From positions 1-34,200 of the forward strand of contig JAJXYT010000129.1 in assembly GCA_021780375.1 (NCBI GenBank): a DNA stretch of 34,200 nucleotides. The letters are read 5' to 3'. Position numbers and translations under genes: made by a program. Of the stretch, positions 10,028 to 18,931 are shown in pieces; position 1 is the stretch's first letter, and each line of letters starts with the position of its first letter. This stretch comes from a bacterium. Lineage in GTDB: Bacteria; Verrucomicrobiota; Verrucomicrobiia; Limisphaerales; UBA11358. The notes beneath the pieces were generated by a model. It made no database searches and was not told the DNA's origin. It was given only the letters and a program-made list of their open reading frames with translations.

Positions 10028-11362
10028 TCAAAGCCCCAATTTCTTGAACCGGTTGTTGACTTCCTTGAAATGAAAGTCGAGTGAACAAAGCTTCTCCAGC
10101 TCGCCGGACTTGAAGTGTCTGGCGATAGCCGGGTCCGCTTTTAATTGTTCGACAAAGTCCGCGTCATCACGCCCGGCGTGTTTAACTTCCCACGTTTTCA
10201 TGGCGGCGTCCTGGACCAGTTTGTAGGCGGCTTCGCGGGTCAGGCCTTTCCTGATGAGCGCCAACAGGACGGTCTGCGAATTCCACATGCCCAGGCTCAG
10301 GCCAAGATTCTTCTTCATGTTCTCCGGATACACCGCCAGACCGTCCATGAGCCGGGTGAGCAGGCCGAACATGTAATCGAGCAGCGTGCAGGAATCGGGG
10401 AAAATAATCCGCTCGACCGATGAATGTGAAATATCGCGTTCGTGCCAGAGGGCGACGTTTTCGAGGGCGGCGACGGCGTTGCCGCGGAGGACGCGGGCGA
10501 GGCCGGTGAGCCGTTCCCAGGTGATGGGATTGCGCTTGTGCGGCATGGCGCTGCTGCCTTTCTGGCCCCGGGTAAACGGTTCTTCCGCTTCGAGCACTTC
10601 CGTGCGCTGCAAATGGCGAAATTCAACCGCCCAGCGTTCAATGCTCGCGCCGACGAGGGCCAGCGTGGTCATGAATTCGGCGTGGATGTCGCGCTGGACC
10701 ACCTGGGTGGCGATGGGTGCGGGACTCAGGCCGAGTTGCCGGCACACGGCCAGCTCGACCTGTGGCGAAAGATGCGCGCTGGTGCCGACCGCGCCGCTGA
10801 GTTTGCCGACGGCGACGACTTCGCGAACCACCACCAGTCGGCGCAAGGCGCGCGTAAATTCATCATACATCAACGCGAGCTTGAGGCCGAACGTGGTCGG
10901 CTCGGCATGAATGCCGTGGCTGCGGCCGATGCAGGGCGTGAATTTGTATTTGCGCGCCTGTTTGGCGACGGACGCGCGAACCGCCCGAACGTCTTGAATC
11001 AAAATGTCGGCACTCTGCACCATCTGGACGGCGAACGCGGTGTCAATGACGTCGCTGCTGGTCAGGCCGAAATGGAACCAGCGGCTGGCGTGGTCGTGGA
11101 TTTTCTCGGCGACCGCGGTGGTAAAGCCGATGACGTCGTGGTTGAGCGTCTTTTCCAGCTCTTTCTGGCGCGCGACGAGGCCGGGCAAATTGGCGGACCA
11201 TTTGTCCGCGCCGCGTTTGATTTTGGCGAAATCGGCGCGCGGCACGACGCGCTCCTTGACCAGGGCTTCGCCGGCCAGCAGTTCGATCTGGAGCCAGAGC
11301 CGGAGCTTGTTTTCATCGGTCCAGATGCCCCGCATCTCCGGGCGGGAGTAGCGCGTAATCAT
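10028..11362 (-). CDS. purB: Adenylosuccinate lyase
   Basis: MITRYSRPEMRGIWTDENKLRLWLQIELLAGEA, HFGLTSSDVIDTA, and signature GQKGSSAMPHKRNPITWERLTGLAR. Confidence 0.97.
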   Translation of the reverse strand: MITRYSRPEMRGIWTDENKLRLWLQIELLAGEALVKERVVPRADFAKIKRGADKWSANLPGLVARQKELEKTLNHDVIGFTTAVAEKIHDHASRWFHFGLTSSDVIDTAFAVQMVQSADILIQDVRAVRASVAKQARKYKFTPCIGRSHGIHAEPTTFGLKLALMYDEFTRALRRLVVVREVVAVGKLSGAVGTSAHLSPQVELAVCRQLGLSPAPIATQVVQRDIHAEFMTTLALVGASIERWAVEFRHLQRTEVLEAEEPFTRGQKGSSAMPHKRNPITWERLTGLARVLRGNAVAALENVALWHERDISHSSVERIIFPDSCTLLDYMFGLLTRLMDGLAVYPENMKKNLGLSLGMWNSQTVLLALIRKGLTREAAYKLVQDAAMKTWEVKHAGRDDADFVEQLKADPAIARHFKSGELEKLCSLDFHFKEVNNRFKKLGL

Positions 11363-11377
11363 GAGGGAAGCCTAGAA

Positions 11378-11469
11378 CGTCGAAAGTCCAGAGTCGAGAG
11401 TCGAGTGCCATAGAAAGAAACCTCGACCCTCGTCCCTCGACCCTCGTCCCTCGTCCCTCGTCCCTCGTC
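11378..11469. repeat. Heptamer inverted-repeat element (locus i)
   Basis: Left arm CGTCGAA AGTCCAG AGTCGAG AGTCGAG (11378-11405); right arm seven units CCTCG[A/T]C (11421-11469), reverse complement GTCGAGG/GACGAGG. Confidence 0.85.
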
Positions 11470-11479
11470 CCGCAACCTG

Positions 11480-12379
11480 TTACCGTTTCGCCATTTTATT
11501 GCGGGCTTTTTCCAGGATTTCGCGTTCGTGCGCGGTCAGGCTTTGGATGCCGTGTGCGGAAATTTTGTCGAGGATGGGGTCCACCTCGCTTTTCACAAAT
11601 TCATCGGTGGACAATTCCTCGTCGGGTTTGCCTCCCGCCGAACGCCAGAATTTGCCCTGGCCGGCGCGGGTGACGGCAAATTCCCGCGGCGCGACCCGTC
11701 GCGGCGATGGGGTTCCCCAGGGCGGCCAGGGCCAGCGGCCTTGGACGAATTGCCGCACGAAAACAAAGCCCGTCAAAATCCCGCCCAAGTGCGCGACATT
11801 GGCGATGTTGCTATGGGACGTCAAAACAATGCCCACGGCAGCCAACCCGATGCTGCACCATAGCAGCGTTCGTCCCCGCATGGTGACAGGAATGAAATAA
11901 ATCAACAGCGTGAAGCGTTCCCACCAGTTCATGACCGCAAAAGCGGCGACCAGCCCGTAACCACCCGCCGAGGCGCCCACCACGGCGCCGCCGAAATATC
12001 CCGGCCACGCAAACGCGGCCGCCATCTGGCAAAGTCCGCCAATGACACCACTGGCCAAATACAGCGCCAGGAAGCGGGTGTGGCCCAAAGCCGCTTCCAC
12101 CGGACGCCCAAAGAAAAAGATGGCCAGCATGTTGAAGATCAGATGCAACCAGCCGCCGTGCAGGAATTGGTAAGTCAGCAATTGCCAGACGTAACCATGC
12201 CACAAGCCTTCCAGGCTCAAGGCCAAATAATTATCTATGAAGTCCGCGCCGCGCGGGTTATTGAAGGCCATCAATTCTGCAAGAAAGACCGCCGTGTTGA
12301 CAACCACCAGTGCCACGGTAAACGACCATTGCGGCCGGTAGTGATCCGGCTGGCGCATGTAATCACGATCTTCAAGCAT
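11480..12379 (-). CDS. Rhomboid family intramembrane serine protease
   Basis: LHGGWLHLIFNMLAIFFFGRPVE, GASAGGYGLVAAF and NVAHLGGILTGF. Confidence 0.93.
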   Translation of the reverse strand: MLEDRDYMRQPDHYRPQWSFTVALVVVNTAVFLAELMAFNNPRGADFIDNYLALSLEGLWHGYVWQLLTYQFLHGGWLHLIFNMLAIFFFGRPVEAALGHTRFLALYLASGVIGGLCQMAAAFAWPGYFGGAVVGASAGGYGLVAAFAVMNWWERFTLLIYFIPVTMRGRTLLWCSIGLAAVGIVLTSHSNIANVAHLGGILTGFVFVRQFVQGRWPWPPWGTPSPRRVAPREFAVTRAGQGKFWRSAGGKPDEELSTDEFVKSEVDPILDKISAHGIQSLTAHEREILEKARNKMAKR

Positions 12380-12412
12380 GGCGATGCAAGCTAATGGCCG
12401 GAACAACTGTTT

Positions 12413-13111
12413 TCAACGGTCATGTTGCTGCAACTCTTCGACAATGCGGCCGTCGGCGAGTTCAAAAACGCGGCGGGCGTGCGCCGCCACCTTGGCATCA
12501 TGCGTGGCAATAACCAGCGTGGTTTGTTTTTCCGCGTGCAACTTTTTGAGCAATTCGATGATTTCACCGCCCGTGTGCGAATCCAGATTGCCGGTGGGTT
12601 CATCCGCCAAGACCAGTTCCGGTTCGTTGATGAGGGCGCGGGCGATGGCGACGCGTTGCTGTTCGCCACCGGACAGTTCGAAGGGTTTGTGTTCCAGACG
12701 GTTGCTGAGACCGACGCGGGCGAGCAGTTCACGTCCACGCGCCGCGGCCCGGGCGGCCGGCACGCGGGCGACCCGCGCCGGCAGGCAGACGTTTTCCAGC
12801 GCGTCGAGTTCCGGCAGCAGATGGTACGCCTGAAAAACGAAACCGACCCGGCGGCTGCGGAAGTCGGTGAGTTCCCGTTCGGAAAACGCCGCGATGTTTT
12901 GTCCGGCAAAATGAATTTCGCCCCCGTTGGGCGAGTCCAATCCGCCGATCAAATGCAGCAGCGTGCTTTTGCCCGCGCCGGATGCGCCGCGCAATGCCAG
13001 GAATTCGCCCCGCGCCACCTGCAGATGGACGCCGCGCAGGACCTCGAGCGTGCGCCGGCCCATGGCATAGGATTTGGCGAGCGCGCGGACGGAGAGGAGC
13101 GGCTCGTTCAT
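12413..13111 (-). CDS. lolD: ABC transporter ATP-binding protein, LolD-like
   Basis: GASGAGKSTLLHLIGGLD (Walker A), LSGGEQQRVAIARALINEPELVLADEPTGNLD. ATG at 13111; adjacent to a LolC/E-like permease. Confidence 0.92.
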   Translation of the reverse strand: MNEPLLSVRALAKSYAMGRRTLEVLRGVHLQVARGEFLALRGASGAGKSTLLHLIGGLDSPNGGEIHFAGQNIAAFSERELTDFRSRRVGFVFQAYHLLPELDALENVCLPARVARVPAARAAARGRELLARVGLSNRLEHKPFELSGGEQQRVAIARALINEPELVLADEPTGNLDSHTGGEIIELLKKLHAEKQTTLVIATHDAKVAAHARRVFELADGRIVEELQQHDR

Positions 13112-13138
13112 GGCGGACCTCCGGCAGGAAAATGAAAA

Positions 13139-13232
13139 ACATTCAACATCCAACATTCAACATTCAAAGCCCAAGGAATCGCGCAACCGCCACCCACTGG
13201 ATGTTCGAGGTTGAATGTTGAATGGTGAATGT
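13139..13232. repeat. Heptamer inverted-repeat element (locus ii)
   Basis: Left arm ACATTCA ACATCCA ACATTCA ACATTCA (13139-13166); right arm TGGATGT TCGAGGT TGAATGT TGAATGG TGAATGT (13198-13232). Confidence 0.88.
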
Positions 13233-13240
13233 TCCCGAAT

Positions 13241-14518
13241 CTACTCATAGCGCAGCGCCTCCACGGGTTTCAGCCGGCCGGCGCGCCAAGCGGGCAGTAC
13301 GCCACCCAGAATGCAAATGATAAACGAACTACCGCAAATCAGCACGATGTCCCGGACATCAATGATCGCCGGCAATTCACTGAAACCGTAAATTTTGGCG
13401 GGGAAAAGCTCCCAGCCGGTCAACCGGTTCATGACATGCAGAAATTCATTGCGATAAGCCAACGCCAGGATGCCGAGTCCGTAGCCGGCGAGCACGCCGA
13501 GCACGCCGATGATGGCGCTTTGGGCGAGAAACACGCCGGAGATTTGGAGGTTGGTGGCGCCGAGCGCCTTCAACATGCCGATTTCGCGCGTCTTCTGGAC
13601 CACGAAGGTAATTTGCGCGCTGAGGATGCACAGCGCCGCCACGATGACGATGAAGAACAACAGATAAAACATCACATTTTTTTCAACGATCACCGCGCCG
13701 AGAATCGCGGAATTTTCCTGCATCCAGGTGGTGATGGTATAGCCGGGCCCCAGCACGCTCGCCAGTTGGCGGCTCACCGCGGGCGCCTGATAGGGATCGC
13801 GCAGCATGACCATCAGGCCATGCACACTGGCGCCGAGGTCGTAAAGCTCCTGCGCGTTTTCCAGCGAGGTGACGGCGATGGAATAGTTGTAATCATAATA
13901 ACCCACATCGAAAATGCCGGTGACGGTGTAATCATCCGGCAGGACGGCCTCTTCGTTCGATTTGCCCTGGTGTTCCTTCATTTTCTCCAACTCGTTCGGC
14001 GAATAAATCGCCACCCGGTCGCCCACGGCCAGATTCAGGCTTTGGGCCAGCGCGCTGCCGATGACCAGGCCGCGCCGGCTCAGGTCGAATTTCCCGGCGA
14101 TGATGCTTTTGGGCAACACGCTTACCGAACTTTCCAGAGCGGGATCCGCTCCTCGCAGATAAGGCACGGCGAAGTACGGCTGTTCATTAGTATCCGCCGG
14201 TTCGGTTTTCATGAGCACCGGGCCCAGGACATACGGCGCCACCCCGACCACATTCTGGTTGGACGCAACGAGGTTCATCACCGCGGCGTAATTTTCCATC
14301 GTTTCGCCGGTCGCCACGATCCGCAGGTGGGCGTTGAAACCGAGGATTTTCGAGCGCAAATCACGATCGAATCCGCTCATGACACTGATGACGATAATGA
14401 GCACGGCCACACCGAGCGCGACGCCGACGATGGAAATGAGCGTGATGATGGAGACGAACGTCCGTTTGGGCCGCAAATAACGCAGCGCGAGGAGCAATTC
14501 AAACGGCAGCCGAGACAT
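13241..14518 (-). CDS. ABC transporter permease, LolC/LolE family
   Basis: FELLLALRYLRPKRTFVSIITLISIVGVALGVAVLIIVISVMSGFDRDLRSKILGFNAHL; C-terminal FtsX-like region. Confidence 0.93.
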   Translation of the reverse strand: MSRLPFELLLALRYLRPKRTFVSIITLISIVGVALGVAVLIIVISVMSGFDRDLRSKILGFNAHLRIVATGETMENYAAVMNLVASNQNVVGVAPYVLGPVLMKTEPADTNEQPYFAVPYLRGADPALESSVSVLPKSIIAGKFDLSRRGLVIGSALAQSLNLAVGDRVAIYSPNELEKMKEHQGKSNEEAVLPDDYTVTGIFDVGYYDYNYSIAVTSLENAQELYDLGASVHGLMVMLRDPYQAPAVSRQLASVLGPGYTITTWMQENSAILGAVIVEKNVMFYLLFFIVIVAALCILSAQITFVVQKTREIGMLKALGATNLQISGVFLAQSAIIGVLGVLAGYGLGILALAYRNEFLHVMNRLTGWELFPAKIYGFSELPAIIDVRDIVLICGSSFIICILGGVLPAWRAGRLKPVEALRYE

Positions 14519-16996: not shown

Positions 16997-17987
16997 TGGT
17001 GGCAACCACCTGGATGCTCTGGATGGCAACGATCGGACTGCTGGGCCAGCGCTGGTCAATCCCTTCCACCCCGGTGACAATGATGCGCATGTTGACATAA
17101 CGGCCCAGGTCAAGGTCCGGCGCCGTGGTGTAAAGATAATCAATCGTCTGATACGTGTCGGGATCGTACAACATGTATTTGGTCGGGGCGACCGGACTCA
17201 TGACCGGTCCCACCACACCTTCATGCGACACGACGCGGTCCACTGGCGGCGGCGGCGCTTGCGCGACCGGCGGAGCGGCCGGTTGGGCGGCGGCCGGCGG
17301 TTGCGGCTCCGGCACGGTGGTGGGTGTCGGTTGTGGCGCTGGAGCCGCCTGCGTCAAATACATGGCGGCGACAAAAGCGTAGGCGTTGGCCGGCGGCTCG
17401 ATTTCCATCCATGCGCCCCTGGTGCGGATGACATTCACCGACGTCCCGCGCTCAATGGTGCCGAGAATGCTGTAGTTTTCACCCGGTCCACCGCGGAGGT
17501 TCATTTTTTTCGCCGTAACCGTGTGGTTGGCCTTGTCAATGTATTTGGCAAAAACCCAGACATGAGCACCTGCGGGGTAAGCGATTTGCGCCCATTGCGC
17601 GGGTTCATTAGCCTTGTGTTTTTCCAGGTTGATCTGGGACAAAACCGTCACCGTCTCGCCTTGTTTGAGATGGGCCACCACCTCGCCCTTGAGGCCGGCC
17701 TGGCCGCGCGCGGTGAGGCTCTTGACGGCGACCTGCGCCGGGCCGGGTGTCAGTGTGACCGTCGGCTCGGAGAGCGGGACGATCCTGGCAGGTGCGGCAT
17801 GGCGTTTGTGTTTTACGGCCTTGGGTTTGGCCTCCGGCGCGGCGGCCCCGGTGGCCGGCGCCAGCGCGGGCGCAGCCTGGGCGGGCGGCGGCGCAGTTGG
17901 CGCGGCGGAAACCGCGTTGGTGTTGTCCTGCGCGACTGCGCTTGTTGCAAGCAGCACGCCCACCATCAACCAGCAATTCGTTTTCAT
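16941..17987 (-). CDS. Secreted protein with bacterial SH3 domains
   Basis: Signal-like MKTNCWLMVGVLLATSAVAQ, Ala/Pro-rich linkers, MNLRGGPGENYSILGTIERGTSVNVIRTRGAWMEI (SH3b). Confidence 0.75.
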   Translation of the reverse strand: MKTNCWLMVGVLLATSAVAQDNTNAVSAAPTAPPPAQAAPALAPATGAAAPEAKPKAVKHKRHAAPARIVPLSEPTVTLTPGPAQVAVKSLTARGQAGLKGEVVAHLKQGETVTVLSQINLEKHKANEPAQWAQIAYPAGAHVWVFAKYIDKANHTVTAKKMNLRGGPGENYSILGTIERGTSVNVIRTRGAWMEIEPPANAYAFVAAMYLTQAAPAPQPTPTTVPEPQPPAAAQPAAPPVAQAPPPPVDRVVSHEGVVGPVMSPVAPTKYMLYDPDTYQTIDYLYTTAPDLDLGRYVNMRIIVTGVEGIDQRWPSSPIVAIQSIQVVATNAVKHVDLRSPRQRGNAH

Positions 17988-18694
17988 ATTTCTGCAAGTA
18001 AAGTTTTAATCTCGGTTTCTGTCAATGTCCGCCATCGGCCGGGCTTCAATTCACCCAATTTGATTTTGCCGATTTGAATCCGCTGCAGCCGTTTGACCGC
18101 CAATCCCTGCGATTCAAACAGCCGCCGCACTTCGCGGTTTTTGCCTTCGGCCAGTTCAAGCTCCACCACACTGCGCATACGTCCGGCCGAAATGAATCTC
18201 GCCGCCTGCGCCTGGAGTTTTTCGCCTGCGTGCCATACGCCCCGCAGGAATCGTTCCAAAACTGCCCGATCGACGCAACCCTCAATCGTTGCAACGTATT
18301 TTTTGCCAACGCCATAGCGCGGATGGGTCAGGCACAGGGCGAATTGTCCATCATTGGTCAAAAAAAGCAATCCTTCCGTGTTAAAATCCAGACGGCCTGC
18401 AGAGTGAAGATTTTGCCATTCCTTGGGCAATAAATCATAAATCGTCGGCCGGCCCAACTCGTCCCGGCGCGAACAAACGCACCCGGCCGGCTTGTGCAGG
18501 GCAACGTACAATTTTCGTCGGGCCCGGACGGGTTTGCCGTCAACGGTCACCGTATCCCGGCCGGGATCCACCCTGGTGCCGAGCCCCGGGACCGGTTGGC
18601 CGTTGACCTGCACGCGTCCGGCCAGGATGATTTGCTCGGCCGCACGGCGGGAAGCGACCCCGGCTTCCGCCAGAAATTTTTGCAGACGAACCAC
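17984..18694 (-). CDS. rRNA pseudouridine synthase, RsuA/RluB family
   Basis: VVRLQKFLAEAGVASRRAAEQIILAGRVQVNG (S4), LHKPAGCVCSRRDELGRPTIYDLLP, AGRLDFNTEGLLFLTNDG. Probable GTG start at 18694; the longer ORF reads through a heptamer repeat. Confidence 0.92.
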   Translation of the reverse strand: MVRLQKFLAEAGVASRRAAEQIILAGRVQVNGQPVPGLGTRVDPGRDTVTVDGKPVRARRKLYVALHKPAGCVCSRRDELGRPTIYDLLPKEWQNLHSAGRLDFNTEGLLFLTNDGQFALCLTHPRYGVGKKYVATIEGCVDRAVLERFLRGVWHAGEKLQAQAARFISAGRMRSVVELELAEGKNREVRRLFESQGLAVKRLQRIQIGKIKLGELKPGRWRTLTETEIKTLLAEI

Positions 18695-18699
18695 GGAAA

Positions 18700-18775
18700 G
18701 TGACGGGTGACGCGTGACGAGTGGCGGGTGACGAGGTGAAATCCGCATCACGAGTCACCTGTCACCGGTCACGTT
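18700..18775. repeat. Heptamer inverted-repeat element (locus iii)
   Basis: Left arm GTGACGG GTGACGC GTGACGA GTGGCGG GTGACGA (18700-18734); right arm TCACGAG TCACCTG TCACCGG TCACGTT (18748-18775). Confidence 0.88.
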
Positions 18776-18931
18776 TTACACGCCCGGTTTGGTTTTACGG
18801 AGGCCGGTGATGCGGTCGCCGTCCTTCCATTGGCCGCGCTTTTTGAGAAGCTCAACGCGCTCGAAACGCTTGAGCACATTGCGCTTGCCGCCCAATACGG
18901 TTGCCGCGCGCAGACTGCGATGCTGTGACAT
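18776..18931 (-). CDS. Small basic protein of Verrucomicrobia/Chlamydiae type
   Basis: MSQHRSLRAATVLGGKRNVLKRFERVELLKKRGQWKDGDRITGLRKTKPGV. Confidence 0.88.
   Translation of the reverse strand: MSQHRSLRAATVLGGKRNVLKRFERVELLKKRGQWKDGDRITGLRKTKPGV

Follow-up and report, generated by a model that had tools for sequence, protein, structure and literature searches.

Why should the gap between two genes of a verrucomicrobial genome be filled, almost to the last base, by two runs of seven-base units facing each other as an inverted repeat, and why should the same layout, spelled in other letters, occur twice more in the same stretch of DNA? The stretch in question (the window, 34,200 nucleotides) belongs to contig C177 of a metagenome-assembled genome (MAG) of Verrucomicrobia subdivision 3, 4.0 Mb in size and 85% complete; the genes and arms described here all lie on its minus strand.

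Locus i consists of an arm of four heptamers of the GTCGAG family (CGTCGAA AGTCCAG AGTCGAG AGTCGAG, 11378-11405), a loop of 15 nt (11406-11420) and an arm of seven CCTCG[AT]C heptamers (11421-11469); sequence and TRF agree with the first description of arms, loop and units to the base. It is placed 10 nt from the stop codon of the upstream rhomboid protease gene (11480-12406; Pfam PF01694) and 15 nt from the ATG of the downstream purB, encoding adenylosuccinate lyase (10028-11362; PF00206, Lyase_1, and PF10397, ADSL_C). Locus ii (13138-13234) is an inverted period-7 array pairing an AACATTC arm (13138-13167; TRF, sequence) with a GTTGAAT arm (13210-13234; TRF, comparison with relatives), and sits in the junction between a lolE/lolC-like permease gene upstream (13241-14518; PF02687 and PF12704, FtsX/MacB) and a gene for a lolD-like ABC ATPase downstream (12413-13111; PF00005, ABC_tran, and synteny). 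Locus iii (18700-18771), likewise an inverted period-7 array, pairs a GTGACGG arm (18700-18739; TRF, sequence) with a GTCACCG arm (18752-18771; TRF, relatives), upstream of a gene for an RluB-like pseudouridine synthase (17984-18694; PF00849, PseudoU_synth_2, and PF01479, S4). The initial annotation had ascribed to all three loci one layout with different units (GTCGAG, AACATTC and GTGACGG), set between co-directional genes whose gaps they nearly fill, and this is borne out; the distances to the flanking genes were also right, save that locus iii lies 3-4 nt, and not 0, from the upstream stop codon. Upstream of locus iii, an ORF of 51 aa (18776-18931) is 82-98% identical in relatives and has no Pfam match.

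Excess of the seven-base period and its unit families

In 0.80 Mb sampled from the 4.0 Mb of the genome there are 50 tandem segments with a lag of 7, against 0-6 for each of the lags 4-6, 8-13 and 15, and none at lag 7 in order-2 Markov shuffles; the 25 segments at lag 14 are a harmonic of lag 7. The sample includes regions picked for hits (parts of C72, C95, C105, C118, C123, C142, C183, C186 and C189), so that the array density is an upper estimate and the share of GTCGAG is inflated, the contrast between periods being unaffected. An inverted partner is found within 110 nt of 30 of 98 arrays, compared to 3 of 98 random control placements (same-strand partners number 6), while about 70% of the arrays have no detectable inverted partner. 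Period-7 inverted arrays are thus far above chance in the sampled 0.80 Mb, and the period controls, the shuffles and the inverted-partner control together rule out a chance origin. Extrapolation from the sample puts the hairpin-forming elements with seven-base units at several hundred in the genome. Genes were called with a simple home-made Markov caller, and most of the data are MAG contigs. This genome and the family f27 are rich in such elements; two genomes of the same order (G121 and G096) showed no excess of arrays in 80-100 kb each.

Within the sampled part of the genome, 72 arrays reduce to 35 canonical units, led by GTCGAG(G/A), AACATTC, GTGACGG and GATTTAC. Pairs of arrays with the same unit number 57 within the genome, with 5.1 expected when letters are shuffled (about elevenfold), and 12 between species, with 1.9 expected (about sixfold). 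The order of the arms is fixed across several species, namely 22:1 for GTCGAG..CTCGAC, 21:2 for GTGACG..CGTCAC, 9:0 for GATTTAC..GTAAATC and 7:0 for AACATTC..GAATGTT, counts that include overlapping pairings. In the GTCGAG family the edges of the loops resemble each other more than the middles; overall, loop conservation is poor, and some paired arms have lost complementarity. The idea of units free to vary under a constant period and architecture therefore stands in part: period and architecture do persist, genome- and clade-wide, while the sequence differs, but the units are limited in number and dispersed families of them recur within the genome. One dispersed consensus element is ruled out by the existence of several families with unrelated units.

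Heptamer dialects vary by genus. A case in point concerns the exact pattern GTCGAGN x3, with 28 copies in this genome (the shuffled control GTGCAGN x3 has 0) and occurrences in no more than 4 of the 294 genomes sampled from the rest of the phylum; two genomes from a single different genus abound in the reversed control GAGCTGN x3. In the phylum sample, G295 holds 111 copies of GACGTGNGACGTGNGACGTG, a reversed control pattern, which amounts to another heptamer dialect. Tandem arrays with a single arm can be strongly expanded (L015, 3021-3149; L041, 7200-7418). In one part of contig C142 (L041, 7174-10032) long GTCGAG/GGACGAG arrays are clustered; they show higher-order repetition, and the blocks that flank them are repeated as well.

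Empty and filled sites between genes and within them

The lolE-lolD junction, where locus ii lies, is an empty site in 52 of 110 deduplicated species, the two genes overlapping there by 8 nt (ATGARYGA). The site is filled by AACAT-family hairpins of 111-171 nt in 11 species, by a GATTT-family hairpin in G174 only, and by heptamer arrays of other units in three others; L293 and L308, of family f27, carry inverted elements with a hexamer period (GATTAC-like), hence the period is not always 7. In most filled sites a GGAGG Shine-Dalgarno motif immediately precedes lolD. On a tree of LolE and LolD, 9 changes are required to explain the AACAT state, and well-supported branches force no fewer than 8 of them; filled and empty sites meet in the sister pairs L147/L151, L160/L141 and L293/L294. 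Such a patchy distribution implies either recurrent gain or recurrent loss, which the pattern does not separate, and in either case a dynamic element. The junction of locus iii has GTGAC arms in five species (the same site being filled in L121, L122, L188 and L130) and GGAGTGC arms in two, L149 and L163.

At orthologous sites, then, presence is patchy with clean empty sites, and units differ even between closely related species at one site, which speaks against a single ancestral sequence and in favour of a process that recurs. Of the earlier proposal of a generating mechanism or structural function in place of common descent, the recurrent process is supported and a dedicated structural function is not. 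No target-site duplication free of reading-frame constraint was found at these sites: at lolE-lolD both genes need the 8-nt ATGA repeat to stay intact, so that it does not count as an independent duplication. Compared to MITEs, the terminal arms vary, and the one 8-nt repeat is forced by the overlapping reading frames.

The elements, first described as intergenic, are not purely so. Many arrays lie in frame inside genes, some of them essential (mfd, uvrA, dnaE, recG, thiC and the valyl-tRNA synthetase gene), others those for MiaA, TsaE, HpnK and a PanE-like protein, and the reading frames of mfd, uvrA, dnaE, recG, thiC, miaA, tsaE and the valyl-tRNA synthetase gene are intact despite them. Comparison with orthologues places the intragenic arrays in variable loops, and congeners carry different units in the same loops of UvrA and Mfd; in the Mfd loop near residue 57-75, for instance, the unit is GTCGAGG in this genome, TGCGGAG in G022, AAAGCCC with CCCAACT in G024, and AACCTTC in G018. 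Across 26 species Mfd contains 43 period-7 segments with 32 different units, against 0-4 segments for periods 5, 6, 8, 10 and 11, and 42 of these 43 arrays fall in regions of variable length that make up 21% of the residues (binomial p ~1e-27, the rows not being phylogenetically independent). Such repeats decorate core proteins of DNA repair and translation, and a word of caution follows for metagenomic proteins, many of whose odd linker peptides (ESRESRVE...LDPRPSTLD, VTRHPSPVTR) derive from repeat DNA.

A second palindrome, which is not heptameric (GGTGGGGCGAG...CTCGCCCCACC), is inserted in uvrA in L037 and in mfd, near residue 1060, in L049; the copy in uvrA of L037 has a direct repeat of ~30 bp on its flanks. 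In L032 (4323-9706) each of a series of prepilin-like genes has heptamer arrays in or before its leader peptide.

Known repeats and the origin of the elements

The GTAG- and CGTC-tagged REP elements and the Rickettsia palindromic elements (RPE) are dispersed palindromes, found mostly in unidirectional or convergent gaps near the stop codon of the upstream gene; they often form pairs of opposite orientation, and they also lie in frame within genes, notably genes of replication and repair such as uvrA, dnaE and recB. Palindromes of this sort abound in the verrucomicrobium Opitutus terrae (PMC3733652). The present elements share with them the habit of lying at gene ends and inside genes, uvrA and dnaE included, and, as with RPE, insert in frame without loss of the reading frame; unlike them, they have arms made of tandem heptamers, with many units that coexist in a genome and turn over between congeners. 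Classical REP elements mobilised by a RAYT were rejected on the tags as well as on the RAYT flanks: at 44 element ends GTAG is near 1 (1.4 at random) and CGTC near 11 (6.5 at random, the unit itself containing GTCG). A search of the genome for a mobilising gene found none, its 5 Y1_Tnp genes all being without flanking period-7 arrays.

Heptamer arrays of Xanthomonas (GGGAATC) and Nostoc (GGGGA(T/C)T) sit close to the upstream gene, for the most part where both flanking ORFs run the same way, and each Xanthomonas genome has 70-75 cases of inverted pairs, whose orientation is fixed as convergent (PMC4692102). Geobacter metallireducens has heptamer arrays in multiple copies, some intergenic and some inside genes (GGACCGG x4; class 3, MTYCTGA), its class 3 sites are shown as tandem heptamers looping between opposite strands, and the elements were read as sites of a global regulator or regulatory RNA elements (PMC2700814); MTYCTGA resembles a CTTCTGA family seen here. 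Inverted heptamer arrays as such are therefore already on record, from both systems (PMC4692102; PMC2700814). Tandem 7-bp units in inverted pairs near gene ends are common to these systems and to the present one, but no single unit prevails in this genome. Xanthomonas and Nostoc have one G-rich unit per genome, whereas here the units are many and unrelated, insertion into genes is frequent and one unit replaces another at the same site; the Geobacter elements have few fixed units, and the study of them did not set filled orthologous sites against empty ones. The Beggiatoaceae TAACTGA repeats and the cyanobacterial STRR are intergenic heptamer arrays of patchy taxonomic distribution (PMC4679880); they are direct, with one exception, have a single unit and lie mostly just upstream of start codons, in contrast to the inverted, multi-unit arrays of this genome. 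The open-access literature that was searched yielded no description of verrucomicrobial elements of this kind or of unit replacement at orthologous sites. The class is already known; its multi-unit form, with turnover of units, is new.

Loci i-iii probably belong to families of dispersed palindromic elements, non-coding and specific to the genome, which have tandem 7-bp arms and behave much like REP and RPE. The elements are numerous, inverted, of fixed polarity and mostly located at tolerated places, that is, co-directional gaps and variable loops of proteins. New elements would be copied into tolerated sites, after which their arms would lengthen, shorten and drift through 7-nt slippage, and elements would be lost through precise or near-precise deletion; the prevailing unit families of a genome may be replaced within roughly genus-level time. 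Related species differ in their 7-base units at corresponding sites, which suggests a recurring process that spreads the elements and quickly replaces their sequence. These repeats are recognisable by a 7-nt period, a palindromic layout and a location, and not by one sequence, and the empty and filled orthologous sites at lolE-lolD make testable both why heptamers dominate the long simple repeats of bacteria and by which route palindromic repeats enter genes.

The main rival, possible but on balance doubtful, is an origin in place, by which a chance 7-nt duplication expands through polymerase slippage, template switching at the growing palindrome makes the inverted copy, and the sites are merely those where extra DNA is harmless. 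It agrees with the report that, among long simple repeats, heptanucleotides rank first in most of the bacteria examined (Mrazek 2007, cited in PMC4679880), with the different units among species at the same loop, and with the many one-armed arrays and the strong expansion of some of them. Yet a given unit turns up at numerous loci within a genome, and again in other species, much more often than composition predicts, random template switching should yield both arm orders where a fixed polarity is seen, and related AACAT elements recur at lolE-lolD with empty sisters between them. It is unlikely that an active system writes inverted 7-nt arrays into tolerated sites from changing short templates, the unit being replaced within a genus as site and architecture persist; if true, what defines this mobile element would be its period and geometry, and not its sequence.

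Effects on transcripts and the region upstream of purB

At the level of RNA the elements are predicted to fold into long hairpins within operon transcripts. Compared to shuffles, 14 of 15 junction elements fold with z from -2.4 to -10.8 (the remaining one at -1.2), and z is near 0 in 9 of 10 control gaps of at least 60 nt without elements. Of the three loci in the window, ii (z -6.5) and iii (z -3.9) fold far better than shuffles, locus i only weakly so (z -1.8). In a covariation analysis of the arms, repeated insertion and the homogenisation of arms would look like compensatory change. In gaps of 60-400 nt, pooled from this genome and its relatives, arrays are present in 62 of 557 co-directional, 4 of 140 divergent and 4 of 87 convergent gaps (co-directional against divergent, p=0.002; against convergent, p=0.08).

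These hairpins and the preference for co-directional gaps, together with a T-rich stretch after element ii, would suit RNA devices of operons (attenuation, processing or stability) selected for their structure and not their sequence. Such a role is quite unlikely as the general explanation: the hairpin is absent from the same junction in sister species, the same elements occur inside protein-coding genes, convergent gaps are not enriched, and the orientation bias stems mainly from this genome (27 of 217 co-directional against 0 of 65 divergent gaps, p=0.001), not being significant in the relatives alone. The identity of an intrinsic terminator was rejected, none of the three loci being among the terminator-like sites scored, and Rfam gave no match within the window. 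Selection may nonetheless act on an RNA hairpin or a promoter at single loci, and effects on the host, be it the spacing of formerly overlapping genes, mRNA stability or a -35-like motif in the arm next to purB, are probably secondary.

It is very improbable that locus i is a promoter structure of tandem -35-like CTCGAC units before purB: many relatives do have upstream of purB a CTCGAC, 17-18 nt, TAnnnT and the ATG within ~10 nt, and an arm of locus i retains one CTCGAC 18 nt from TAGGCT, but most relatives have the motif without any array, a consensus promoter scan did not flag locus i, and such a reading leaves loci ii and iii, as well as the copies within genes, unexplained. The shared motif itself (window 11363-11400; L121-L200), with TAnnnT ~6-8 nt before the ATG, suggests from its spacing a leaderless purB transcript. 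In other lineages, pairs of TTTTTAATT are found upstream of purB in place of the CTCGAC/TAnnnT motif.
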